A stretch of DNA of 64,000 bases from Crocinitomicaceae bacterium (GTDB lineage: Bacteria; Bacteroidota; Bacteroidia; Flavobacteriales_D; Crocinitomicaceae), in NCBI GenBank assembly GCA_022447585.1, contig JAKVAR010000002.1, positions 186,001 to 250,000 of the forward strand. Direction: 5' to 3'. Shown piece by piece: positions 6,801 to 53,815 of this stretch. Position 1 is the first letter of the stretch, and each line of letters opens with the position of its first letter. The notes below the pieces were generated by a model. The model saw only the letters and a list, made by a program, of their open reading frames with translations, searched no databases and was not told where the DNA came from. Position numbers and translations under genes: made by a program.

Positions 6801-9800
6801 ATTCAGATGTTACTTTCACAAGTTCTTTCAGTTCAGGATTCTCTGGATTTGGTGTAGGTATTTACAACCAACTATTAGGGACTCCTCCGACTGCTGATTT
6901 TACAGGAACTCCGACAACTATTTGTGCTGGAGAAACAGTTACATTTACTGATTTATCTACTGATGGCCCTACATCATGGTCTTGGGATTTTGGAGATGCA
7001 GGAACTTCAACTGATCAGAACCCTACACACATATATACTGCTGCAGGAAACTATACAGTAACACTGACAGCAACAAATGCTGACGGATCTGATGTTCATA
7101 CTGAAACAAACTATATTACTGTAAATGCAATTCCAACAATTACTGCTAGTGGAACTACTACAATCTGTGAAGGTGCTTCTACAACTATCACTAGTTCTGG
7201 CGCTACATCTTATTCTTGGGATCAAGGCATAGGAGCTGGTGCTACTCAAACAGTTTCTCCAACTACAACAACAACTTATACTGTGACAGGAACAACAGCT
7301 GGATGTTCTAACACTGATCAAGTTACGGTTACTGTTAATTCAGTGCCAACTGTTACAGCCAATGGAACAGCTACGATATGTGAAGGTGCTTCTACAACAA
7401 TTTCAGGTGCTGGTACTACCTCTTATTCCTGGGATAATGGATTGGGTGCTGGTGCATCACAGACTGTTTCACCGAATACAACAACTACTTATACGGTTAC
7501 AGGAACAACTAATGGATGTTCTAATACTGATCAAGTAACTGTTACAGTTACTCCTTTACCAACAGTAACCGCAAGTGGAACTGCTACAATCTGTGAAGGT
7601 GCTTCTACAACTATCACTGGTTCTGGAGCAACTACTTACTCTTGGGATAATGGTTTAGGTACTGGTGCATCGCAAACAGTTTCTCCAACTACAACAACAA
7701 CTTATACTGTGACAGGAACAACAGCTGGATGTTCTGACACTGATCAAGTTACGGTTACTGTTAATTCAGTGCCAACTGTTACAGCCAATGGAACAGCTAC
7801 GATATGTGAAGGTGCTTCTACAACAATTTCAGGTGCTGGTACTACCTCTTATTCCTGGGATAATGGATTGGGGGCTGGTGCATCGCAACTGGTTACACCA
7901 TCAACTACAACTACTTATACTGTAACAGGAACAACAAACGGTTGTTCAAGTATTGATCAAGTAACCGTAACCGTAACTCCTTTGCCAACAGTAATAGCAG
8001 GAGGAACAACTACTATTTGTGCTGGTACTTCAACTACGATTACAGGTTCTGGAGCAACTACGTATTCTTGGGATAACGGTCTAGGAGCTGGTGCATCGCA
8101 AATCGTTACTCCAACGACAACTACAATATACACTGTAACTGGAACAACATCTGGTTGTTCAAATACGGACGCAGTGACTGTAACGGTTAATCCAACTCCA
8201 GGGATTACAATAGGAGCAGCAAATAATCCAAGCGCATGTGCAACTGCTACTGGTTCTATCCAAATAGCTGGTTCTGGTAGTGGAAATGTTACATGGACCG
8301 GAACTGCTTCTGGCACAGCAACATCAGTTTCTTTGCCACATACAATTTCTGGACTTGCTGCCGGATCGTATACAATAACATTTACAGATGCTAATGGATG
8401 TATTTCTAACACCTTAGTTCAATCGTTATCTGACCCTTCTGCTCCAACAGTGGTAGCAACAGGTTCAACTACGATTTGTGCTGGTGCTTCAGTAAATATT
8501 TCTGCATCAGGTGCAACTACATATTCTTGGGATAATGGTCTAGGAGCTGGTGCATCTCAAACAGTTTCTCCAACAACAACAACTACTTATACTGTAATTG
8601 GTGATGTAGCTGGTTGTACTGGTTCAGACGCAGTTACAATAACTGTGAATGCAGTACCAACTGTAGTTGCGAATGGTACAGCAACAATTTGTGAAGGTGC
8701 TTCAACTACAATTAGTGGTTCGGGAGCAACTACTTACTCTTGGGATAATGGATTAGGAGCAGGTAATTCTCATACAGTTTCACCTACATCTACTACAACA
8801 TACACTGTAACAGGTACGACTAATGGTTGTTCAAATACAGACATACTTACTGTAACAGTTACTCCGTTACCAACTGTAGTTGCGACAGGTACTGCGACAA
8901 TTTGTGAAGGTGCTTCAACTACAATCGATGCAACTGGTGCAACAACGTATTCTTGGGATAACGGTCTAGGAGCTGGTGCATCGCAAATCGTTACTCCAAC
9001 GACAACTACAACATACACTGTAACAGGTACGACTAATGGTTGTTCAAATAATGACGTGATAACAGTTACAGTTAACCCTACTCCATCTATTACACTGGCG
9101 GGGGCAAACAATCCAACTTCATGCGCAACAAGTACTGGATCAATTGTAATTGGAGGTTCTGGTAGTGGAAATGTTACATGGACCGGAACTGCATCGGGAA
9201 GTGCAAATGCAGTTTCATTACCATATACACTTTTAGGTTTAGGTGCAGGTTCTTACACTATAACTTTTACAGATGCTAACGGTTGTACATCAAATACAAT
9301 TAATCAATCTTTAGTTGATCCTTCTGCACCGACAGTCGTTGGAATTGGAAGTACCACAATTTGTGAAGGTGCTTCAGTAATTATTTCTGCAACAGGAGCA
9401 ACTACCTACTCTTGGGATCAAGGACTATTAGGTTCTGGAAGTGCTCAATCAGTTTCTCCAACAACAACGACAACATATACAGTTACTGGTGAAGTCGCCG
9501 GTTGTACTGCAACTGATCAGGTTACGGTAACGGTTAACTCTGTGCCTACTGTACTTGCAACGGGAACTACTTCAATTTGTGAAGGCGCTTCAGTTTCAAT
9601 AAATGCAACTGGTGCAGCTACTTATTCTTGGGATCAAGGTGTTGGAGCTGGAGCTTCTCAAACGGTTTCACCAACTTCAACAACAACATATACTGTAACG
9701 GGAACGACGAACGGATGTTCAAATACTGATCAGGTGATTGTTACTGTTAATGCAATTCCAAACGTAACTGCGATTGGAGGTGCTACTATATGTGCAGGAG

Positions 9801-11092
9801 AATCAACTAGTATCAATGGTACCGGAGCAACAACCTATACTTGGGATAATGGAATTGGAGCTGGAGCTTCTCAAACTATTTCTCCAACGACAACGACAAC
9901 ATATACAGTTATAGGATCAACAAATGGGTGTTCTAATACAGATAATGTTACGATAATAGTCAACCCTTCACCAACAACTATAGCCACAGGCACTACTTCA
10001 ATTTGTGAAGGAGCTTCAACTACTATCAATGCAAATGGTGCAACTACTTATAACTGGAATCAAGGAGTTGGAGCTGGAGCATCTCAAATAGTTTCTCCAT
10101 TAGTTACAACTACATATGAAGTAACAGGGACAACTGCAGGCTGTTCAACTACTGACCAAGTAACAGTAACAGTTACTCCTCTCCCAACAGTTGTAGCCAG
10201 CGGAACTGCAAATATTTGTGAAGGTGCTTCGACTACAATCGATGCAACTGGTGCTGCATCTTATGACTGGGATAATGGAATCGGAGTTGGAGCTTCTCAA
10301 ACAGTTTCACCAACTACAACAACAACTTACATTGTAACTGGTACGACATCAGGCTGTACTAATACTGACCAAGTTACTGTAACGGTTAATCCACTACCTA
10401 CTATAGTTGCAACTGGAACAGCTGATATTTGTGAAGGATCATCTACGCCAATTGATGCTTCTGGAGCAACTACTTACTCTTGGGATAACGGAATTGGAGC
10501 TGGAGCTTCTCAAACAGTTTCTCCAACTACAACAACAACGTACATTGTAACTGGTACAGAGAACGGCTGTTCTAATACGGATCAAGTTACTGTAACGGTT
10601 AATCCATTACCTGTAGTTACGGCAACACCAACTGCAATAGGTCCTTTATGTTCTTATGAAGATCCAATTACTTTAGTTGGATCACCAATTGGAGGAACAT
10701 TCAGTGGTCTAGGTCTTTCTGGAGATGCATTCTCTCCTAGTGCAGCTGGACCAGGAACACATAGTATAACTTATTCCTACACTGACGCTAACGGATGTTC
10801 TAATTCGGTTATAGTAAATGCAACAGTTAATGATTGTGCTGGAATTGCTGAAGAAGCTTTAATAGGCGTTTCATTATTCCCGAATCCAAACGACGGAAAC
10901 TTTGTGATTACGGGATTGGATAAGGGCTCTGAATACAAAGTATACGATGACAGAGGAAGATTAATTGTTCAGACAATTGCTACTTCTGATAAAGAATTCA
11001 TCTCTCTTCCAAATGGAGATGCTGGAATGTACTACATTCAAGCAACTAAAGATAGTAAGGAAGGACAAGTTAAATTCTTAGTCGTAAAATAG
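3833..11092 (+). CDS. Giant T9SS-secreted repeat protein (2419 aa)
   Basis: A very large secreted surface protein, probably adhesive or structural (inference). The signal peptide is MNKLLLLLSGALLSLHASAQ. Domain order: an N-terminal region paralogous to the previous gene (~110-530, with DPSVDVGPNHVVQMING); a Calx-beta-like domain (~535-660, ending VTITINDDD); a jelly-roll/MAM-like region (~675-840); a PKD domain (~1019-1098, WSWDFGDAGTSTDQNPTHIY); about fourteen ~71-residue repeats of type TICEGASTTI...YSWDNGLGAGASQTVSP...TTTYTVTGTTNGCSNTDQVTVTV, interrupted twice by an ~83-residue domain with GSYTITFTDANGC; a LCSYEDPI/GGTFSG domain; and a T9SS type A sorting domain (VSLFPNPNDGNFVITG). Each repeat has two Cys residues, which may form a disulfide. 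The stop is 141 bp after the previous gene's terminator at its 5' side, so it is probably transcribed on its own. Confidence 0.92.
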   Translation: MNKLLLLLSGALLSLHASAQKDAMTANSPQTIPVQATIVPINYHGTTVNLSSYVEPAGTVNEITKSEKLGVSAKSDWLLHENVNPNALPNGIDPALQQSYPAPAAPSKALTQNWDGMGYTGVNPADPSVDVGPNHVVQMINGSSGARIQIWNKSGTSLMAPVYFDNFVSMPTGAGDPIVMYDERADRWFISEFSASGNNLHVAISTTPDPTGSYHTYSFNSPGGFPDYPKYSIWENEYVMTANVNTPDIFAMNRADMLAGVATTAQMFSQANFGTIGFQASTPVSMNGTALPPSGQPALLMRMRDDAWAGAATDALEMWELDIDWVTPGNSSLSQVQTIPTAPHESELCGYTSFSCIPQPSGVNALDPLRELLMNRIHYRNFGTHESIVTCHVTDVDGTDHAGIRWYELRRTGGTGGTWSIYQQGTYSPDSDHRWMPSIGISASGAIGLAYSVSSGTTFPSLRYTGRKECDPLGVMTEAETTIIAGSASNGSNRWGDYFAMGLDPSDGETFFFTGVYNPATQWQTRIAAFSMPSCSPQVAFGGSTFDLNESDADQTNNCLPYSILNIPISIAVDPSQPAGVTVNVTGGTATNNVDYAIQNNTFSFDGATLSGNVVIHVYNDDYVEGNETITLDYSLNANGGDAVGGLSNQTVTITINDDDIAPLNAINPTPVSLLTQDFESGFGTFSTNNPNSAPDVWAIGLEAAAASGNFPYPGTNATNIAWVNDDNADSDRSEVNIDFPAVDLTNYVAGTVNFDSYFFGLAYNGVTETLELSASVGGGPFNLIGSAVNGNTAAADYVAQSIDMSSVCGNANVIFRITYSDGGDWLYGAGVDNIEIIGQTGIDIQQSINTGGMEANLGPNETVHFYDPTSGDVMMTLENTSAFDYGCVTVEVDRAGTSAVQFNSATVADFLMSKTYTVVPTNNNPSGTFDITVYYKESEVAGWEAATGNNRNNAEVIKVAGANAIADVNPGNSGTFTIANAASTLGSFYSDVTFTSSFSSGFSGFGVGIYNQLLGTPPTADFTGTPTTICAGETVTFTDLSTDGPTSWSWDFGDAGTSTDQNPTHIYTAAGNYTVTLTATNADGSDVHTETNYITVNAIPTITASGTTTICEGASTTITSSGATSYSWDQGIGAGATQTVSPTTTTTYTVTGTTAGCSNTDQVTVTVNSVPTVTANGTATICEGASTTISGAGTTSYSWDNGLGAGASQTVSPNTTTTYTVTGTTNGCSNTDQVTVTVTPLPTVTASGTATICEGASTTITGSGATTYSWDNGLGTGASQTVSPTTTTTYTVTGTTAGCSDTDQVTVTVNSVPTVTANGTATICEGASTTISGAGTTSYSWDNGLGAGASQLVTPSTTTTYTVTGTTNGCSSIDQVTVTVTPLPTVIAGGTTTICAGTSTTITGSGATTYSWDNGLGAGASQIVTPTTTTIYTVTGTTSGCSNTDAVTVTVNPTPGITIGAANNPSACATATGSIQIAGSGSGNVTWTGTASGTATSVSLPHTISGLAAGSYTITFTDANGCISNTLVQSLSDPSAPTVVATGSTTICAGASVNISASGATTYSWDNGLGAGASQTVSPTTTTTYTVIGDVAGCTGSDAVTITVNAVPTVVANGTATICEGASTTISGSGATTYSWDNGLGAGNSHTVSPTSTTTYTVTGTTNGCSNTDILTVTVTPLPTVVATGTATICEGASTTIDATGATTYSWDNGLGAGASQIVTPTTTTTYTVTGTTNGCSNNDVITVTVNPTPSITLAGANNPTSCATSTGSIVIGGSGSGNVTWTGTASGSANAVSLPYTLLGLGAGSYTITFTDANGCTSNTINQSLVDPSAPTVVGIGSTTICEGASVIISATGATTYSWDQGLLGSGSAQSVSPTTTTTYTVTGEVAGCTATDQVTVTVNSVPTVLATGTTSICEGASVSINATGAATYSWDQGVGAGASQTVSPTSTTTYTVTGTTNGCSNTDQVIVTVNAIPNVTAIGGATICAGESTSINGTGATTYTWDNGIGAGASQTISPTTTTTYTVIGSTNGCSNTDNVTIIVNPSPTTIATGTTSICEGASTTINANGATTYNWNQGVGAGASQIVSPLVTTTYEVTGTTAGCSTTDQVTVTVTPLPTVVASGTANICEGASTTIDATGAASYDWDNGIGVGASQTVSPTTTTTYIVTGTTSGCTNTDQVTVTVNPLPTIVATGTADICEGSSTPIDASGATTYSWDNGIGAGASQTVSPTTTTTYIVTGTENGCSNTDQVTVTVNPLPVVTATPTAIGPLCSYEDPITLVGSPIGGTFSGLGLSGDAFSPSAAGPGTHSITYSYTDANGCSNSVIVNATVNDCAGIAEEALIGVSLFPNPNDGNFVITGLDKGSEYKVYDDRGRLIVQTIATSDKEFISLPNGDAGMYYIQATKDSKEGQVKFLVVK
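7126..10612 (+). repeat. Coding tandem array of ~14 units of ~213 bp
   Basis: In-frame units of about 71 codons run through the giant gene. Two inserted ~83-codon units (around 8195-8440 and 9080-9325) give a higher-order pattern of five, three and six short units. Some neighbours are almost identical in DNA: about 200 bp from 7247 recurs at 7673, exactly 426 bp (two units) later, with one mismatch seen. Another long match links ~8068 with ~8950. This indicates recent duplication or gene conversion inside the array. Confidence 0.9.
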
Positions 11093-28850: not shown

Positions 28851-29015
28851 ATGTTCAGAAAAATGATGTTTAAGAAAGTTACTGTTTTTATTGGGTTCAT
28901 TCTTTCGCTCTTAAACACAAGTGCGCAAACATCATTTACCCATTTACGCCAAGCGCACACTAACATTGATTTCAGAAATACAATCTTTGAAACAGAAGAA
29001 TTCTTATTGAATTAA
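28851..29015 (+). pseudogene. 5' stump of a VCBS/ASPIC-UnbV type secreted protein gene
   Basis: A 54-codon ORF missed by the track. It has a signal peptide (KKVTVFIGFILSLLNTSAQ) followed by FTHLRQAHTNIDFRNTIFETEEF. This is the usual opening of Bacteroidota VCBS/ASPIC-UnbV proteins (F-x-x-L....T-x-I-x-F-x-N-x-I-x-E-x-E-x-F), which normally continue for ~1100 residues with NGGGVAVGDFNNDG-like repeats. Here a stop comes at once, overlapping the 3' end of the convergent CotH gene. I read it as the remnant left after loss of the rest of the gene. A functional short secreted peptide cannot be excluded. Confidence 0.5.
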
Positions 29016-31028
29016 CAGCTTCTCTCTAAGTACTTGCCCTGAATCCAATTGGATAACAACTAAAAATGAACCCGATAAGTCTCTAGTATCCAATTGAACC
29101 TGTGAACCACCGATTGCTTTCACCTGACGGACTAACTTGCCAGAAAGATCAAAAACTGAAACATCTGTGATTGATTTGTTTACAAAAACATTGACAACAT
29201 CATTTGCCGGATTAGGGTATACTGCCAAATACGGTTCTTTCGCTATAGCTGTAATTCCAAGATTAGGGCAATTACCAGGCATATTATTATCTAGCCAATT
29301 AAGTCTTTCAGCAATCCACCCCTTGAACTTAACAAGCTCTTCAGCATAGGTATTTGGTTGCGTTCCAATTTCTGGGGTCCCCACATTTACACCAAGAATA
29401 GGCCAACGCGTAAAATGACGATCTTGAGCATCGGTCAACACATTGCCTAATGAATCGATGTAATTGAACAACACCGAAGTATCTAGAATCGTATTTCTTA
29501 ACGTAAAATACCTACAACTCAGCTCATTTGCAAACGTGGTATCTTGAATCATTCGCATATACCAGCCTGGCGGCTTCACGTCTGACCCCCCTGAATAACT
29601 ATGTATCCAACCACTTCCATTTAGCATATTGGCATCAGTATCCTTATAAGCCCAATCAAAATCCCATACAGGACCTGCATAAATCAAAGAATCTTTATCG
29701 TCTCTAGTCTTATGGAAACGACGACTTTTCTTAAACCCGTCAATATTTCTGGAAAACTCATTGACAATAAAATAATCGATAAATGAAAGAACATCTATAT
29801 ACTTGCGGTAACCATCCGAAGGGTGTTCAAAATTATTACCCCATAATGCATCTTCAAATTCACCAACACGTTCTTGTATGTATATCTTTTGCTCTTGTGT
29901 AATATCAAACTCATCAGGATAACCGTAAACATATTGCACTGCACTACCTGGGTAATTTGGATTATCATAATTTGATGGCCAGCTATTAGTTCCATCCCAA
30001 TAATCTACCTTAAAAATATAGCCTCCAGTAAGGCTATCTCCAGCATTATCATCCAAATCCAGTCTTGAAATATCTACGCGATCATTGTCTCTTTTTATCT
30101 TCTCCGTAAAAACATATACGCCATTATATATATCATTAATTACCACTTCACACAATTTAGTTCTTGGTGCATAGTGTCCCATTTTGTTAAACAAATCAAA
30201 CGCAAGAATATTTCTTATAAAAGTCTTGTCATTGTAGTTTGCCAATAGTATCCAATCATTCTCAGTTGGCATTCCAAGAAGGGGAACATTGTTGTTCTGA
30301 CCAAATGCGTCTTGAGTTTCAATTCCGTAAGGTTTCTGAGGTAGTGTAGCAGAATAAGAACCACGGATTTCAATTCCAGCATACCCATCATATACATTGG
30401 CAGGATCATTGGGATGATTTAGAGCTCCTGGCCCGTTATCTATGATCTTCATGTTCACTAAAATCTTAGGTTCATCAATAATCTCCTGCCCATTAGTGTT
30501 GATTAATACAAGCGGAATATTTGTCGCGCTTGGTGGATTCAATCCTATGCTTTCTGTTATATTTAATTGATAATTCCCATTATCATTCCCACTATAACCA
30601 TCAATTACAATGAAATAAGTTGTATTGGCTTGCAACAATTGCGCAGTAATTCGCGAATTGTAAGCTGCTGCAAAACTAGGCGATTGACAGCCATCCTCCT
30701 GACATCCAACCGGTGTCCCTGTACAATTACCCTCATAAACATACAATTGAGAATCATAATCGGTGATGCCTTCGCACAAACTAATATCCACATACTTATC
30801 CGTTCCACCATTCGTGTACTCATAAACATGATCATTTGCCCCACCTTGATTTCCTACATCTGCACAACTCTCAAAATAATCATCTACCGCTCCTAAAGTA
30901 GACCCACTACCCGTATAAGGAATACTTGAAATTACTGTAGCAGTAGCACATGTTTCTCCACCAGATTGGCTATATACATTAAAATTGATAATTAATGCTA
31001 AAACCCAAAAAGAACAAACAACTTTCAT
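29004..31028 (-). CDS. CotH-family T9SS-secreted protein with PPC-like domain
   Basis: A 674-residue secreted protein. After the signal peptide (MKVVCSFWVLALIINFNVYSQ) comes a PPC-like beta-sandwich (~22-160, DKYVDISLCEGITDYDSQLYVYEG). The CotH kinase-like domain (~170-570) follows, with GIEIRGSYSATLPQKPYGIET, NDWILLANYNDKTFIRN, YAPRTKLCEVVINDIYNGVYVFTEKIKR and the acidic motif AGPVWDFDWAY. A T9SS sorting domain (AVYPNPANDVVNVFV) closes it. Characterised CotH proteins phosphorylate surface proteins on Ser; that activity here is inferred. A second CotH protein with a different N-terminal domain is at 50091. Confidence 0.9.
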   Translation of the reverse strand: MKVVCSFWVLALIINFNVYSQSGGETCATATVISSIPYTGSGSTLGAVDDYFESCADVGNQGGANDHVYEYTNGGTDKYVDISLCEGITDYDSQLYVYEGNCTGTPVGCQEDGCQSPSFAAAYNSRITAQLLQANTTYFIVIDGYSGNDNGNYQLNITESIGLNPPSATNIPLVLINTNGQEIIDEPKILVNMKIIDNGPGALNHPNDPANVYDGYAGIEIRGSYSATLPQKPYGIETQDAFGQNNNVPLLGMPTENDWILLANYNDKTFIRNILAFDLFNKMGHYAPRTKLCEVVINDIYNGVYVFTEKIKRDNDRVDISRLDLDDNAGDSLTGGYIFKVDYWDGTNSWPSNYDNPNYPGSAVQYVYGYPDEFDITQEQKIYIQERVGEFEDALWGNNFEHPSDGYRKYIDVLSFIDYFIVNEFSRNIDGFKKSRRFHKTRDDKDSLIYAGPVWDFDWAYKDTDANMLNGSGWIHSYSGGSDVKPPGWYMRMIQDTTFANELSCRYFTLRNTILDTSVLFNYIDSLGNVLTDAQDRHFTRWPILGVNVGTPEIGTQPNTYAEELVKFKGWIAERLNWLDNNMPGNCPNLGITAIAKEPYLAVYPNPANDVVNVFVNKSITDVSVFDLSGKLVRQVKAIGGSQVQLDTRDLSGSFLVVIQLDSGQVLREKLLIQ

Positions 31029-46970: not shown

Positions 46971-47438
46971 ATGGCAAATCGAATTTGGAATATTGATGGG
47001 AATGAAACTGTTGCAAGCGAGGGAGCAGTGATCAAATGGGAAGACAGTCAATTCTTCACGGTATCGTATAACGGTAAATCATTCAATGGAGAAGTCCTTG
47101 AAGAAAAAACAGAAAGTAACTTTTTGAAACTGAAGTTAAATCACCGTGTTTTCGAAATTCGTAAAAAAGGCGAATTGGATGAGCTTATCTCTGCAATGGG
47201 ATTAGATGTTCCTAAAGTGCGTAAACTTAAAGAATTACAAGCGCCAATGCCAGGACGTATTGTAAACATTGCAGTAGAAATTGGACAAGAACTAAATGTT
47301 GGTGACGATATTCTTTCATTGGAAGCCATGAAAATGGAAAATGTGCTTAAAGCCGAAGGTATAGGAGTTGTAAAAGCTATCAATTTTTCTAATGATGATG
47401 TTGTTGAGAAGGGTGCTGTAATTATCGAATTCGAATAA
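46971..47438 (+). CDS. Biotin/lipoyl-attachment carrier protein
   Basis: A 155-residue protein. The C-terminal biotinyl domain (~88-155) starts LQAPMPGRIVNIAVEIG and contains the attachment motif LEAMKMEN with Lys121. The ~85-residue N-terminal part resembles that of the biotin carrier subunits of acyl-CoA carboxylases or decarboxylases in Bacteroidota. No carboxylase or biotin carboxylase gene lies in the window, so its partner is elsewhere. It is 21 bp upstream of the MBOAT gene and could share a transcript with it. Confidence 0.9.
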   Translation: MANRIWNIDGNETVASEGAVIKWEDSQFFTVSYNGKSFNGEVLEEKTESNFLKLKLNHRVFEIRKKGELDELISAMGLDVPKVRKLKELQAPMPGRIVNIAVEIGQELNVGDDILSLEAMKMENVLKAEGIGVVKAINFSNDDVVEKGAVIIEFE

Positions 47439-47459
47439 TTCAACACAATTAAATAGCCT

Positions 47460-48878
47460 ATGGTCTTTAGCAGTATACTTTTCCTGCTAATATTTCTGCC
47501 CATATTTCTGGTAGTTTATACGCTTTCACCTAAAGCTTTTAAAAATTGGTGGATACTGTTTTCCAGCATAGTATTCTATGCCTGGGGAGCACCAATATTT
47601 ATATTCATTGTATTGATTTCTACAATTCTTGATTTCTACCTTGTTCAACAAATGCACAAGACAACAGAAGCAAGAAAGAAACGCTACTTATTAATCCTTT
47701 CTATTTGTCTTAATCTAGGACTATTAGGTTATTTCAAGTATGCGAATTTCTTTATTGAAAATGCCAATGCCACGCTTGAAGCAATTGGGTTTGATACAAT
47801 TACCTGGACCAAAGTGGTACTCCCAATCGGAATTTCTTTTTACACATTTCAAACGCTTACATACTCCATTGATATTTACCGCGGCGTTCACCTACCGTTA
47901 AAGCGATTACACAACTATTTGCTATACATTATGTCATTCCCCCAGATGATTGCGGGACCGATTGTAAGATTTAATAGTGTAGCCGATCAAATTACAAGTA
48001 GAAAAGAAACCGTGGATGATAAACTTTTCGGATTCTACAGATTTTGTATTGGTTTAGCTAAGAAAGTATTTATTGCAAACGTCTTAGGCGAATTAGCGAC
48101 GACAATATTAGAAACCCCTATTCATCAATTGGGAACTCTTAATGCGTGGGTCGGCATTCTCGCCTATACTTTCCAAATCTATTTCGATTTCTCTGGTTAC
48201 TCAGATATGGCTATAGGATTAGGAAGAATGATTGGTTTCAAATTTCCCGAAAACTTCAACAACCCTTATAACTCAAGAAGCATTACTGAGTTTTGGCGAA
48301 GATGGCATATTACTTTGGGGGATTGGATGAAGAATTACCTATATATCCCTTTAGGCGGAAATAAGGTAAAATCAAACTATCGATTATACTTAAACCTTTG
48401 GTTAGTTTTCTTTCTTTCCGGATTATGGCATGGTGATTCTTGGAACTTCATTCTTTGGGGAGTATTTCATGGTATTTTTCTAATCTTAGACCGACTGTTT
48501 CTTGCTAAATTTTTAAACCGAATCGGATCAATCCCCAGCACAATAATTACATTCTTCATAGTAATGATCGGTTGGACCTTATTTGCTATTGAGGACATTA
48601 ATCATTGCTTTAGTTATTTCGAAGTTCTGTTCAGCTTTAACCCTATTGGGCTGATGCACATAAAGTCTGAATATGTATTCATTGGTTCAATTGCAATGGT
48701 TATTTCGTTCATTGGAATATCAAAAATCGGTATGAAAATTCAGGAATCGATATACGCTCATACTACGAATATCTGGTTACAGTTACCAAGAGCTATTTTA
48801 TCAATCTTAGTCTTTATATTGGCATGTAGCTCTATTGCTGCATCGGAATTTAATCCATTCATATATTTTAGATTCTAA
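47460..48878 (+). CDS. MBOAT-family membrane O-acyltransferase (AlgI-like)
   Basis: A 472-residue polytopic inner-membrane protein. Family motifs are IGISFYTFQTLTYSIDIYRG, SFPQMIAGPIVR, FDFSGYSDMAIGLGRMIGF, ITEFWRRWHITLGDWMKNYLYIPLGG and the catalytic-His motif LSGLWHGDSWNFILWG (~residue 323). AlgI-like proteins pass acetyl groups across the membrane for O-acetylation of exported polysaccharides. The following gene overlaps its stop (TAATG) and encodes an AlgJ/AlgX-like periplasmic partner, as expected for such pairs. Confidence 0.95.
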   Translation: MVFSSILFLLIFLPIFLVVYTLSPKAFKNWWILFSSIVFYAWGAPIFIFIVLISTILDFYLVQQMHKTTEARKKRYLLILSICLNLGLLGYFKYANFFIENANATLEAIGFDTITWTKVVLPIGISFYTFQTLTYSIDIYRGVHLPLKRLHNYLLYIMSFPQMIAGPIVRFNSVADQITSRKETVDDKLFGFYRFCIGLAKKVFIANVLGELATTILETPIHQLGTLNAWVGILAYTFQIYFDFSGYSDMAIGLGRMIGFKFPENFNNPYNSRSITEFWRRWHITLGDWMKNYLYIPLGGNKVKSNYRLYLNLWLVFFLSGLWHGDSWNFILWGVFHGIFLILDRLFLAKFLNRIGSIPSTIITFFIVMIGWTLFAIEDINHCFSYFEVLFSFNPIGLMHIKSEYVFIGSIAMVISFIGISKIGMKIQESIYAHTTNIWLQLPRAILSILVFILACSSIAASEFNPFIYFRF

Positions 48879-50026
48879 TGGTTGAAAATAACAGAAACAC
48901 AGGGAAAAATATATTGTTCGGTATTCTGCTGGTTGGACTTTGCCTTCCATTGATTCAACAACTTACCAAATTTGCTTATGTTAGGGAATTGAAAGGCGAT
49001 ATCAAGGTGACACAAAAAGCACAGTTAAACACCAAGGATTGGTTCAGCGGAAAATATCAAGATTCAACCTCCAAGTATATCAATGATAATTTTGGTTTCA
49101 GAAATGACTTCATTAGAATAAATAATGAACGTCATTACTTGATGTACAATGAAGCTAAAGCGAACGGTGTTATTATAGGAAAAGACAGCTATTTATACGA
49201 ATGGGGGTATATTGCAGCTGCATTAGGTCTTGATTTTGTTGGCGATGATTCAGTTAAAATTGACATCGATAAACTAAAGTATGTTAGCGATACCTTGCAT
49301 TCACTAGGGAAAGAAATCATAATTGTTTTTGCCCCTGGGAAAGGATCTTATTTTCCCGAATATATCCCCGAAATTTGGGTCAAGCAAAAGAAGAATAAAA
49401 CTAACCTTGAAATATATTCTTCCGAATGTAAAGCACAAGGCATAAACTACGTTGATCTAAATACTTGGTTTGTTCAGGCAAAGGACACAACTCAATATCC
49501 TCTATTTAGTCAGGCCGGAATACATTGGAGTAAATATGCCGAATACTTGGTTATGGATACATTAATCAATTATTTCGAAAGAAATATGTCAGTCGACTTG
49601 CCTGATATAATACTTAAAAGCATAACGGTTGATGCTGATAACCAATTTGGCGACTATGATGTTGGCGACGGCATGAATTTATATAGTAAGCTGCCAACCT
49701 TCCCCATGGCTTATCCAGATTATCATTTTGATAAAGATCATCGGGAAAAATATGATTCCATCCAATCAATTATTATTGCCGACAGCTATTATTGGGGCCT
49801 TTTCCTTAAGAATTTCTCATCAGATTGTTTCAGTAATGGAGAGTTTTGGTATTACAATAGGCTAATCTATAAGATGGGAACTCCAGGTGCTTCAAATTGC
49901 AGTGATGCCAATATCCTGGAAAAAGTAGCTAACAATGATTTGATTGTCATACTCAGTACGGACGCAAACTTAGATGATTTCGGATTTGGACTAATAGATG
50001 AGTTATTCGAAGTCTATCAAAAATAG
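48878..50026 (+). CDS. AlgJ/AlgX-like SGNH O-acetyltransferase partner
   Basis: A 382-residue protein with one N-terminal membrane anchor (~12-30, NILFGILLVGLCLPLI). The segments NDNFGFRNDFIRINN, GVIIGKDSYLYEWGY, IIVFAPGKGSYFPE, AGIHWSKYAEYL and IIIADSYYWG follow the AlgX/AlgJ/DHHW pattern, in which Ser and the Asp/His pair act as an SGNH esterase/transferase. It would complete O-acetylation of a surface glycan in the periplasm. Start and the MBOAT stop overlap by one base. Confidence 0.85.
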   Translation: MVENNRNTGKNILFGILLVGLCLPLIQQLTKFAYVRELKGDIKVTQKAQLNTKDWFSGKYQDSTSKYINDNFGFRNDFIRINNERHYLMYNEAKANGVIIGKDSYLYEWGYIAAALGLDFVGDDSVKIDIDKLKYVSDTLHSLGKEIIIVFAPGKGSYFPEYIPEIWVKQKKNKTNLEIYSSECKAQGINYVDLNTWFVQAKDTTQYPLFSQAGIHWSKYAEYLVMDTLINYFERNMSVDLPDIILKSITVDADNQFGDYDVGDGMNLYSKLPTFPMAYPDYHFDKDHREKYDSIQSIIIADSYYWGLFLKNFSSDCFSNGEFWYYNRLIYKMGTPGASNCSDANILEKVANNDLIVILSTDANLDDFGFGLIDELFEVYQK

Positions 50027-50090
50027 CATTATCCTTTTATTATTCTTAACTTGGTTAGCTTAAATCGCTAATTTTTACACTACTTATGGT

Positions 50091-52271
50091 ATGCGAATAA
50101 TACTATTATTTACTTTAATTGTAGCTTCTTCATTTTGTCGCAGTGCTGTTAATCATTGGGAGACGGTGGTATACGAAACAGACAACTGGAAATTTCTAGT
50201 ACCTTTTGCTTCGGTTCCTACAAACTGGAATACCATTGGATTCAACGACGCAAGCTGGGCTAATGGAATTGGTGGTTTTGGATATGGTGATAGTGACGAC
50301 AACACCACTTTTTCAAATACAATTTCTTGCTATCAAAGAACTACATTCAATATAATAGACATTAACGCGATTGACGTTGCCGTATTTAACATTGACTATG
50401 ATGATGCATTTGTAGCTTACCTAAACGGTGTTGAAATTACTAGAGAAAATATTACAAGTGTTGGACAGCCATTATTTAATCAACCTTCAGATGGACTGCA
50501 TGAGGCGGTTATGTACGGAGGAGGCTATCCCTTTCAATTTACAATAAGCCAATCATTTTTAGCTGCAAACCTAATTAATGGAACCAATGTTCTAGCAATT
50601 CAAACACACAATGAATCTATTTCATCTAGTGATTTAAGTTCCCGTGTGTTTTTATCCCTGGGCATAAATGATTCATCTTCTAATTATGGATCAACTCCAC
50701 CCTGGTTCGTACCACCAATTGTTTTTTCAGATTCGAATCTTCCAATTATAGTTATTAATACTGGTGGTGTTACCATTCAAAACTCGTATAAGGTTGATGC
50801 TTCAATGGGAATCATTTATAACGGTATAGGAAATAGGAATTATCTAACAGACCCTTTCAATGAATACCAAGGTGATATTGGTATAGAAATAAGAGGTTCA
50901 TCATCATCTGGATTCCCCAAGAATCAATGGGGAATTGAAACAAGAGACCCATCAGGAAATAGACATGATGTAAGTATTTTTAACATGGCTTACGATAATG
51001 ATTGGGTCTTATATGCCCCATACTCTGACAAGTCACTAATTCGAAATGTTCTTACCTATAAAATGGGATGGGATACGGATCAATATGCTCCTAGAACGAA
51101 GCTCTGTGAAGTTGTATTAAACGGTGAATATCAAGGTGTGTATGTTTTTATTGAAAAGATTAAAAGAAAAGATGGTAAAATTGGAATTGACGATGTAAAA
51201 CCTCAAGATACCACGGGAAATGAACTAACCGGTGATTACATTCTTAAAGTAGATAAACTAACATCTGGAGGAATCGTAGCATGGTCATCGCCTATCCCCC
51301 CTTACCCCGGTGCTTCTGCCGTTATTCGATTTCAAGCACATGATCCTGGTTATGATAGTTTAGTAACTGAACAATTAAGTTATTTAGAATCTAATGTTAC
51401 TTCATTTGAAAATGCCTTAGATGGTCCAAATTTTTCAAATCCTAATTCAGGATACTCTCCATACATTGACATGGAATCTTTTGTAGATTATATGCTTGTC
51501 CAAGAATTTAGCAAAAATGTTGATGGCTATAGAATAAGTAGTTTTTTCCATAAACAAAGAGACAGTGAAGGCGGAAAACTGAAAGCCGGACCTTTATGGG
51601 ACTTTAATCTGGCATGGGGAAATGCTAATTACTGTGAAGGAGGCTTAACTTCAGGTTGGGAAATGAATTTTGGAAATGTATGCGGTGGGGGTGGATATCA
51701 AAACCCTTTTTGGTGGCAGAAACTAGTTCAAGACCCTACATTTGCACATATGATGAACTGTACTTGGAGTGAACTGCGTCAAGGGCCTTGGCACACGGAC
51801 TCTTTATTAACCTATATTGATCAACAAGCTCTTTACCTTGAAGAATCTCAAATTCGTAATTACGCAAAATGGCCTGTACTCGGAACTTACCTATGGCCAA
51901 ACAACTTTATTGGAAACTCCTATGCGGAAGAAATTGATTATTTAAAGACATGGCTCGTAGAGAGAGCAAACTGGATGGATGCCAACATGTTTGGCACATG
52001 TGATGACCTTGGAATTCCAAATTTAAACGAAACCGTTTATCGTGTTTTTCCGAATCCTGCAAGAACCATAATAACTGTAGAATCGAATGAAAAAATAAAC
52101 GATGCTCAAATATTCTTAATTGATGTTGCCGGGAAATTAGTTCACTCCCAGAAAATCAACAATGTATTTTCGGTTAAGCTGGACATTTCTTACTTAGAAA
52201 AAGGAATTTATAATTATAAAATCATAGAATCTAACCAAAACGTTAGGCTTGGGAAAATCGCAATACAATAA
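50091..52271 (+). CDS. CotH-family T9SS-secreted protein with galactose-binding-like domain
   Basis: A 726-residue protein with a short signal peptide (MRIILLFTLIVASSFCRS). Residues ~20-200 form a sandwich domain with GFGYGDSDDNT, YDDAFVAYLNGVEI and GTNVLAIQTHN. The CotH domain (~220-620) has GDIGIEIRGSSSSGFPKNQW, DWVLYAPYSDKSLIRNVLTY, APRTKLCEVVLNGEYQGVYVF and LKAGPLWDFNLAWG. A T9SS sorting domain (YRVFPNPARTIITVES) ends it. It belongs to the same family as 29004, but the N-terminal domain differs. It sits 64 bp after the AlgJ-like gene and 1 bp before a lipoprotein gene. Confidence 0.9.
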   Translation: MRIILLFTLIVASSFCRSAVNHWETVVYETDNWKFLVPFASVPTNWNTIGFNDASWANGIGGFGYGDSDDNTTFSNTISCYQRTTFNIIDINAIDVAVFNIDYDDAFVAYLNGVEITRENITSVGQPLFNQPSDGLHEAVMYGGGYPFQFTISQSFLAANLINGTNVLAIQTHNESISSSDLSSRVFLSLGINDSSSNYGSTPPWFVPPIVFSDSNLPIIVINTGGVTIQNSYKVDASMGIIYNGIGNRNYLTDPFNEYQGDIGIEIRGSSSSGFPKNQWGIETRDPSGNRHDVSIFNMAYDNDWVLYAPYSDKSLIRNVLTYKMGWDTDQYAPRTKLCEVVLNGEYQGVYVFIEKIKRKDGKIGIDDVKPQDTTGNELTGDYILKVDKLTSGGIVAWSSPIPPYPGASAVIRFQAHDPGYDSLVTEQLSYLESNVTSFENALDGPNFSNPNSGYSPYIDMESFVDYMLVQEFSKNVDGYRISSFFHKQRDSEGGKLKAGPLWDFNLAWGNANYCEGGLTSGWEMNFGNVCGGGGYQNPFWWQKLVQDPTFAHMMNCTWSELRQGPWHTDSLLTYIDQQALYLEESQIRNYAKWPVLGTYLWPNNFIGNSYAEEIDYLKTWLVERANWMDANMFGTCDDLGIPNLNETVYRVFPNPARTIITVESNEKINDAQIFLIDVAGKLVHSQKINNVFSVKLDISYLEKGIYNYKIIESNQNVRLGKIAIQ

Positions 52272-52272
52272 T

Positions 52273-53079
52273 ATGAGACATTTATTAAAAGTATTTACCT
52301 GCTTTATATTCGCGTCAACTATACTTATCGCTTGTTCCAAAACAGCAGGCAAAGGTGGCACTTCTTCAATAAAGGGAGAAGTGAATGGAGTTACACTGTC
52401 AGGAGGAAATGGAAACCTTGCAGAAAAAGAAAGAACAACAGTTATTTGTAATCATGCAGATGGCATTGGTGGATCAATTCTAGATAATAGTGATTATTTC
52501 TTATTGAATACTCCAGAAGGAGGAACACTATATTATGTCTGGTATGAAAATACAAATTGGCTGGGTCAGGATCCTGGTCTATCCGGTAGAACTGGAATTA
52601 AAGTAACGTATAGCAACAATGATTCTAATAGCACTCTTGCCTCTAACACAATGACTGCAATTAATTTAATCGCTGGCTCAGACTTCACGGTATCTTTAAA
52701 CAACGACATATTAACAATAGAAAACACCATAGCCGGTGAGGTGGTTGATGCCGATGACGTTAACACACCATTTGTAATTGACACCGAAAACCAAGGTAAA
52801 GCGGCTACAATTGGAAACTCCATTCAAACAAGTGGGGCCATTGCCGATGAAAGAGTTTATTTAATATATGGAGATGAAGACTTTTATAGCGAAACTGTGC
52901 GAACTGATGAAAATGGTAAATATCAATTTACCGGTTTAACAAAAGGAAATTATCGAATATTCGCTTTTTCATTGGATACTACAACAGCAGGTGGTCTATT
53001 GCATCAAGTTGAAGTTGAAGCGTCGATATCAAAGAATAAATCGATTTCGGAAGCACCCTCAATTACAATAATTCGTTAA
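52273..53079 (+). CDS. Lipoprotein with carboxypeptidase-regulatory-like end domain
   Basis: 268 residues from the ATG at 52273, one base after the CotH stop; the track start lies inside the CotH gene. The lipobox is IFASTILIAC. The C-terminal ~90 residues (TSGAIADERVYLIYGDEDFY and TDENGKYQFTGLTKGNYRIF) form a transthyretin-like/carboxypeptidase-regulatory-like fold. The middle part is unassigned. Position in the CotH and O-acetylation cluster suggests an envelope role. Confidence 0.8.
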   Translation: MRHLLKVFTCFIFASTILIACSKTAGKGGTSSIKGEVNGVTLSGGNGNLAEKERTTVICNHADGIGGSILDNSDYFLLNTPEGGTLYYVWYENTNWLGQDPGLSGRTGIKVTYSNNDSNSTLASNTMTAINLIAGSDFTVSLNNDILTIENTIAGEVVDADDVNTPFVIDTENQGKAATIGNSIQTSGAIADERVYLIYGDEDFYSETVRTDENGKYQFTGLTKGNYRIFAFSLDTTTAGGLLHQVEVEASISKNKSISEAPSITIIR

Positions 53080-53783
53080 TGAATTTATTCCGTAACATAA
53101 TATTAATCTTCACGTTATTAGGTTCATTCTTCACTATTGGTCAGTCTGACTTTATCACTTGGGCTGGACTTGAGCTTAAAACTTCAGTTTCTAAAAAAAT
53201 TGAATTGAACTTAAAAGGACAATCACGATTTGATCGAAATTCTTCGCATCTTAAAAACACCTTTATTTCACCTGGAATCAGATTAAAAGTTCACAAAAAC
53301 ATTCGATTAAGCGGAAAATATAGACTTTCTAGCATTCCGTTCAATTTAAATAGCTCTAATCGTATTTTGTCGCACCGGTTGACTTTAGATGCGCAATTTA
53401 GAAATCTATTGAATTTAATACTTGATAAACCTATGGTTGATCTGAACGTAAGACTGCGTGGCACACATGAGATGGAGAAAAACAAAAGAGATGATCACTA
53501 TATTAGATTGCGATTAAAAGGAGCATTAAATTTGAAAAAATCAAAAATCACTCCCAATGCATCGCTAGAAATATTCTATCATTTGAACAATCAAATCACT
53601 TATACATTTGAAAAAGTGACATCACACCATGCAATAAATAAACTTCGGATAAGAATAGGTACAGACTATAAGCTCAACAAGCGGCAAGAATTATCATTTT
53701 TCGGAATTTACCAAAGAGAATTATTCCGTTTAGAAAATGACTTTATTCTAGGAGTCGGGTATACCTTTGAACTTAAGAAATAA
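53079..53783 (+). CDS. DUF2490-type outer-membrane protein
   Basis: A 234-residue protein with signal peptide MNLFRNIILIFTLLGSFFTIGQS. The strands WAGLELKTSVSKKIELNLKGQSRFDRN, DAQFRNLL, KLRIRIGTDYKLNKRQELSFFGIYQRE and the end FILGVGYTFELKK match the barrel-like DUF2490 family. It overlaps the lipoprotein stop by one base (TAATG), so it belongs to the same operon. Function unknown. Confidence 0.85.
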   Translation: MNLFRNIILIFTLLGSFFTIGQSDFITWAGLELKTSVSKKIELNLKGQSRFDRNSSHLKNTFISPGIRLKVHKNIRLSGKYRLSSIPFNLNSSNRILSHRLTLDAQFRNLLNLILDKPMVDLNVRLRGTHEMEKNKRDDHYIRLRLKGALNLKKSKITPNASLEIFYHLNNQITYTFEKVTSHHAINKLRIRIGTDYKLNKRQELSFFGIYQRELFRLENDFILGVGYTFELKK

Positions 53784-53787
53784 AAAA

Positions 53788-53815
53788 GGGATTCTAAACG
53801 AATCCCAATTTCTTT
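53788..53815. terminator. Bidirectional terminator between convergent genes
   Basis: GGGATTC / GAATCCC arms with a 5-nt loop, A6 on one side and a T-containing stretch on the other. The arms overlap the 3' end of the minus-strand gene. Confidence 0.7.

Follow-up and report, generated by a model that had tools for sequence, protein, structure and literature searches.

A conserved CotH–lipoprotein–DUF2490 cassette with links to VTC and DUF4956 lies beside a separate O-acyltransferase module in a Crocinitomicaceae bacterium

A stretch of 64,000 nucleotides from contig JAKVAR010000002.1 of a Crocinitomicaceae bacterium (Bacteroidota), hereafter the window, carries a run of six genes on its + strand. 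The run ends in the cassette that is the main subject of this study, namely a CotH kinase-family protein with a type IX secretion system (T9SS) type A sorting domain (50091-52271; PF08757, 1.4e-47), a lipoprotein (52273-53079; PF17210, 2e-7) and a predicted outer-membrane beta-barrel of the DUF2490 family (53079-53783; PF10677, 1.6e-22). A gap of 64 bp (50027-50090) separates these genes from a preceding module, which comprises an MBOAT O-acyltransferase resembling AlgI and DltB (47460-48878; PF03062, 6.5e-32) and an SGNH protein resembling AlgJ and AlgX (48878-50026; PF16822, 29.0 bits against a cut-off of 26.5). The run is headed by a BCCP-like biotin/lipoyl carrier gene (46971-47438; PF00364, 5e-14), which ends 21 bp upstream of the MBOAT gene and is also found in the syntenic relatives L072 and L073. 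A terminator-like hairpin at 53788-53806 closes the run; this is a pattern match only, and the number of such hits across the region equals that obtained from shuffled sequence. An initial annotation had described the interval 46971-53783 as five tightly joined genes probably forming one unit. Those five genes are real, but the interval holds six, with the carrier gene at its start. Of the four junctions, three agree with that account (TAATG overlaps between MBOAT and AlgJ and between lipoprotein and DUF2490, and a 1-bp gap between CotH and lipoprotein), whereas the 64-bp gap between AlgJ and CotH had gone unmentioned and is precisely where the run divides.

The cassette is a real and highly conserved unit. 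When an alignment of the lipoprotein was scanned against about 85,000 species genomes and the best 80 loci were retained, the gene immediately preceding the lipoprotein was CotH in 75 of the 78 readable loci (two of the 80 being cut off). DUF2490 followed directly downstream in 64 of the 80, overlapping the lipoprotein gene by one base in 32 cases and by four bases in 20. Across these loci the three genes occur in many genomic settings. In one clade, which includes L176 and L133, rplU–rpmA–lnt, identified by sequence and with no profile search, stand immediately ahead of the cassette. The apolipoprotein N-acyltransferase gene lnt was rejected as a member of the system, being upstream in this one clade only, while other clades differ. 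We found no paper linking CotH with DUF2490, and the papers on DUF2490, judged by title and abstract, concern other matters.

The CotH protein scores 163 bits against PF08757, for which the curated cut-off is 23.8. Its C-terminal sorting domain, absent from the initial annotation, is recognised by PF18962 (1.4e-11, 45 bits) and TIGR04183 (33 bits), and the T9SS itself is represented in the same genome by GldL (6.7e-74). In the CotH of Bacillus subtilis, the catalytic and metal-binding aspartates D228 and D251 are essential (PMC7821199). Comparison with 5jd9 places their equivalents at D478 (codon 51522-51524) and D504 (51600-51602) of the window protein, a mapping that depends on a weak pairwise alignment. 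Both residues are invariant across the aligned subfamily of the window protein, and the NxDG and WDxx motifs match. One motif position differs, the window protein reading FPKN where its relatives read FPKK. Most likely, CotH is a T9SS-exported kinase acting outside the cell. In a PHROGs scan of the three cassette proteins, CotH also matched phrog_6813 (1.2e-29), a family of unknown function. The window holds a second CotH gene on the - strand (29004-31028; 674 aa), which has a T9SS-type tail, is about 40% identical to the first across the C-terminal two thirds and has no lipoprotein or DUF2490 neighbour. The whole genome (4.5 Mb) yields 12 PF08757 matches, corresponding to about 11 CotH genes, and one of these genes (C124:149024-149970) is broken by a TGA stop.

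The lipoprotein begins with a lipobox followed by a GxGG tether, and both the cysteine and the GxGG are invariant in 21 aligned relatives. The Bacteroidota lipoprotein export signal (consensus in PMC5080379), looked for as two acidic residues at positions +2 to +5, is absent from the window protein, which reads CSKTAG, and occurs in one of 79 relatives. The lipoprotein is therefore probably anchored in the outer membrane facing the periplasm. An AlphaFold2 model (mean predicted local distance difference test score, pLDDT, of 82) shows an alpha/beta domain inserted in the middle of the protein, at residues about 53-160, and a C-terminal domain resembling SdrD_B and CnaB. In the model, this middle domain is similar to domains from phage tail and baseplate proteins; the best-fitting of the top BFVD matches has 26% identity across 131 columns at 2.3 A. 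A search of the PDB with the whole lipoprotein returned only SdrD/CnaB-type folds plus weak tail-sheath matches (8kee, weaker than the BFVD fit), and the PHROGs scan matched the lipoprotein weakly. The fusion of a phage-tail-like domain to a CnaB-like domain is unusual for a bacterial lipoprotein. The third protein of the cassette, 234 aa long, matches PF10677 with 80.6 bits, and its AlphaFold2 model (pLDDT 93) is an all-strand barrel of 11 strands running over the length of the protein. In a fold search this model matched the barrels of autotransporters, intimin and PgaA. Hence, DUF2490 is a predicted outer-membrane beta-barrel.

To place the cassette in its family we used a sample of 120 genomes, which partly overlaps with the best 80 loci, so that the two samples are not independent. 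The lipoprotein was present in 79 of these genomes and the AlgJ-like protein in 52. Many of them also contain relatives of the lipoprotein of about 130 residues that have no middle domain. In a sample of 20 loci with such short lipoproteins, where CotH subtypes were called by a broad CotH profile and Pfam, CotH was adjacent in 13 and belonged to at least two subtypes, mostly differing from that of the window; DUF2490 was in the cluster in 15. One such subtype combines lamin-tail, CotH and CHU_C domains and has PorP/SprF adjoining. The genome under study has such a locus of its own (L201, C158:246000-260000), in which PorP/SprF and a lamin-tail/CotH/CHU_C protein of 961 aa are encoded divergently from a short lipoprotein that DUF2490 follows.

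A further pair of genes recurs around these proteins. In three of the short-lipoprotein loci (L196, L203 and L205), DUF4956 and VTC, a protein resembling polyphosphate polymerases, lie between the lipoprotein and DUF2490 (checked with Pfam in L205). A phylum-wide search with DUF4956, from which 22 strong loci were read, showed VTC next to DUF4956 in 20; the cluster included DUF2490 in 15 loci and the lipoprotein family in three. CotH, confirmed by Pfam, was present in six of the 22 (L246, L305, L306, L307, L309 and, two genes off, L312). In L307, from a distant family, the order is CotH–lipoprotein–VTC–DUF4956–DUF2490, and all five partners occur together there and in L205. Within the 120 genomes, DUF4956 was found in 33 of 33 with the long lipoprotein and in 56 of the 87 others, with 8 genera involved. 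The CotH proteins of L305, L306 and L309, beside VTC–DUF4956–DUF2490, carry a lipobox at the N-terminus and lack a T9SS tail, which would represent another route to the surface. In L312 an arylsulfotransferase-like T9SS cargo protein (8463-10163) lies between DUF2490 and CotH.

The two proteins encoded ahead of the cassette form a pair of a known type. Like AlgI–AlgJ/AlgX and other MBOAT–SGNH pairs (PMC4148444, PMC12148441), they consist of an MBOAT protein and an SGNH-like partner whose gene overlaps that of the MBOAT. In the MBOAT protein, the histidine of the GLWHG motif is at codon 48429 and the match to a DltB-like profile falls below the cut-off. The AlgJ-like protein keeps the P-x-K and HW motifs and the serine of AlgJ and AlgX. 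Alignment with 4o8v shows His216 (49523-49525) and Ser303 (49784-49786) retained, whereas Gly214 (49517-49519) replaces the catalytic aspartate of the DxH motif. The complete Asp-His-Ser triad is thus not found in the aligned window protein, and the glycine is invariant across 16 Bacteroidota homologues. Since glycine occupies the position of the catalytic aspartate while the histidine and serine are kept, the protein is, on its residues, an SGNH-type partner of MBOAT and, by its triad, not an AlgJ. A further difference from the alginate systems is that no alginate genes are present.

The initial annotation had proposed that all five genes work as one operon in which a single surface structure is acetylated by MBOAT and AlgJ and phosphorylated by CotH. 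Some features of the junction favour this view. The genes share a strand, and scans for terminators and for Bacteroidota promoters (TTG–TAnnTTTG) found nothing in the 64-bp gap or between the same two genes in two relatives. Co-transcription is thereby neither excluded nor demonstrated, and read-through giving one transcript in this species is possible. Three species of one genus (the window, G091 and G083) retain the joined order despite an AlgJ identity of only 46-48%, and CotH genes of Gram-positive bacteria show linkage to a polysaccharide operon (PMC7112168). On the other hand, the survey of AlgI/AlgJ and CotH neighbourhoods that had been suggested, once run, showed a linkage largely unconserved outside the genus of the window. 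MBOAT adjoins the AlgJ-like gene in 30 of 30 AlgJ loci examined, but CotH comes next in three, those of the species just named. Conversely, AlgJ or MBOAT appears in two of the 80 lipoprotein loci, which belong to the same two related species. Yet another member of this genus, G114, has the modules on different contigs and another gene following AlgJ. The gap lengthens to 171 and 102 bp in the two relatives, and the outer neighbours common to the window, G091 and G083 (an M1 peptidase, the biotin carrier and an Omp28 lipoprotein) show that the junction is part of a general synteny and needs no special explanation. Moreover, AlgJ is present independently of the cassette with its long lipoprotein (13 of 33 genomes that have it against 39 of 87 that do not, p=0.68). 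Our results indicate that MBOAT–AlgJ and CotH–lipoprotein–DUF2490 are two independent modules, neighbours by chance, and that their junction is genus-specific. Of the proposed single unit, the cassette stands as a conserved unit and a shared transcript is possible, while the acetylation genes belong to a separate module. The idea of a structure both acetylated and phosphorylated finds no support in these counts, and we regard a single functional operon as highly doubtful. Instead, we consider it likely that the modules are independent and that the cassette forms the outer-membrane and surface half of a phosphorylation system.

The strongest competitor to this reading gives the lipoprotein a different part, as the dedicated substrate or docking partner of CotH through its inserted alpha/beta domain, with DUF2490 displaying it on the surface. 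The long form with the insert indeed accompanies one CotH subfamily (in the 75 of 78 loci given above), and the short forms without it accompany other subtypes. There is also a precedent in B. subtilis, where CotH phosphorylates CotB and needs the neighbouring CotG (PMC7821199). But the lipoprotein has no Ser-rich tract, its missing export signal probably leaves it on the periplasmic side while CotH is exported, and L126 has a long lipoprotein and no CotH, so that this explanation appears rather unlikely. CotH might also be a non-catalytic surface or adhesion protein, in a cassette that builds a structural surface layer. Its large accessory domain, its nature as T9SS cargo, the many paralogues in the genome and the FPKN of the window protein would fit such a role; the presence and invariance in the subfamily of both aspartates essential in B. 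subtilis speak against it, and we judge it improbable.

In our preferred reading of the cassette as the surface half of a phosphorylation system, the T9SS would export CotH, and the kinase would then act extracellularly, while the outer-membrane lipoprotein would pair with the DUF2490 barrel to export, anchor or display the target of CotH. This target could be a polymer whose synthesis involves the VTC–DUF4956 pair, or the lipoprotein itself; VTC–DUF4956 would supply, from the inner membrane, a polymer or signal that contains phosphate. The proposal draws on observed gene content, linkage, domains, catalytic aspartates and the T9SS signal, together with the predicted barrel fold. Several points weigh against it. 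From this evidence we infer the kinase activity, its target, the contact between lipoprotein and barrel and the cooperation with VTC–DUF4956, and the alignment behind the two aspartates is the weak one mentioned above. The lipoprotein lacks an adjacent CotH in L126, L186 and L188. VTC and DUF4956 are absent from the cassette of the window, the pair being encoded at a separate locus of the genome (L239), and most genomes of the family likewise hold VTC–DUF4956 apart from CotH, so that the argument for cooperation comes from gene content and from distantly related bacteria. The co-occurrence of DUF4956 with the long lipoprotein, in turn, is uncorrected for shared ancestry. More tentatively, the reading can be extended to a hitherto undescribed two-membrane phosphorylation or phosphopolymer system of Bacteroidota. 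Such a system may combine a VTC–DUF4956 synthase in the inner membrane, the lipoprotein with DUF2490 in the outer membrane and a T9SS-secreted CotH outside, and would correspond in diderm cells to the CotH–PPP–DUF4956 set of Gram-positive Pel loci (PPP, polyphosphate polymerase). It would be split in Crocinitomicaceae, where the window holds the outer half.

These findings matter because CotH-like kinases are abundant in environmental bacteria, and the three-gene cassette assigns to such kinases a lipoprotein and a barrel partner. The recurring link to VTC–DUF4956–DUF2490 suggests that one pathway brings polyphosphate-type enzymes and an exit channel in the outer membrane together with secreted kinases. 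The connection of the cassette with VTC–DUF4956 could also help to explain the effect of CotH on Pel in streptococci.

Pairs of a lipoprotein and a barrel that serve in export are known elsewhere, for example PelC–PelB, AlgK–AlgE and LptE–LptD. The likeness of the cassette to them is one of gene arrangement, an outer-membrane lipoprotein and an outer-membrane barrel being encoded side by side. The DUF2490 barrel is only 234 aa long. With the CotH–CotB/CotG system of B. subtilis, the cassette shares the kinase family, equivalents of both essential aspartates and an adjoining gene for a partner protein. It differs in that the window protein is T9SS-exported in a Gram-negative cell and has no serine-rich repeat substrate in its neighbourhood. 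Another comparison is with the Pel loci of Gram-positive bacteria, in which CotH, a polyphosphate polymerase and DUF4956 are accessory genes (PMC7112168). Streptococcus intermedius strains that lack either SIR_1594, a CotH gene, or SIR_1592 have altered amounts of Pel and aggregate less (PMC12345266); the three-gene arrangement outside Pel loci was not found in the analyses of that study. The same three partners, with the polyphosphate-polymerase-like VTC in the place of the polymerase, stand in one run in L246, L305-L307 and L309, and the regions of about 15 kb read around the Bacteroidota CotH–VTC–DUF4956 loci showed no recognisable Pel gene. Compared with the Pel set, the window has the outer half only, while the Bacteroidota runs gain a DUF2490 barrel and often the lipoprotein, which is what a two-membrane cell would need. 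Within the literature searched, CotH–lipoprotein–DUF2490 with its ties to VTC–DUF4956 thus looks like an undescribed form of a known gene set.

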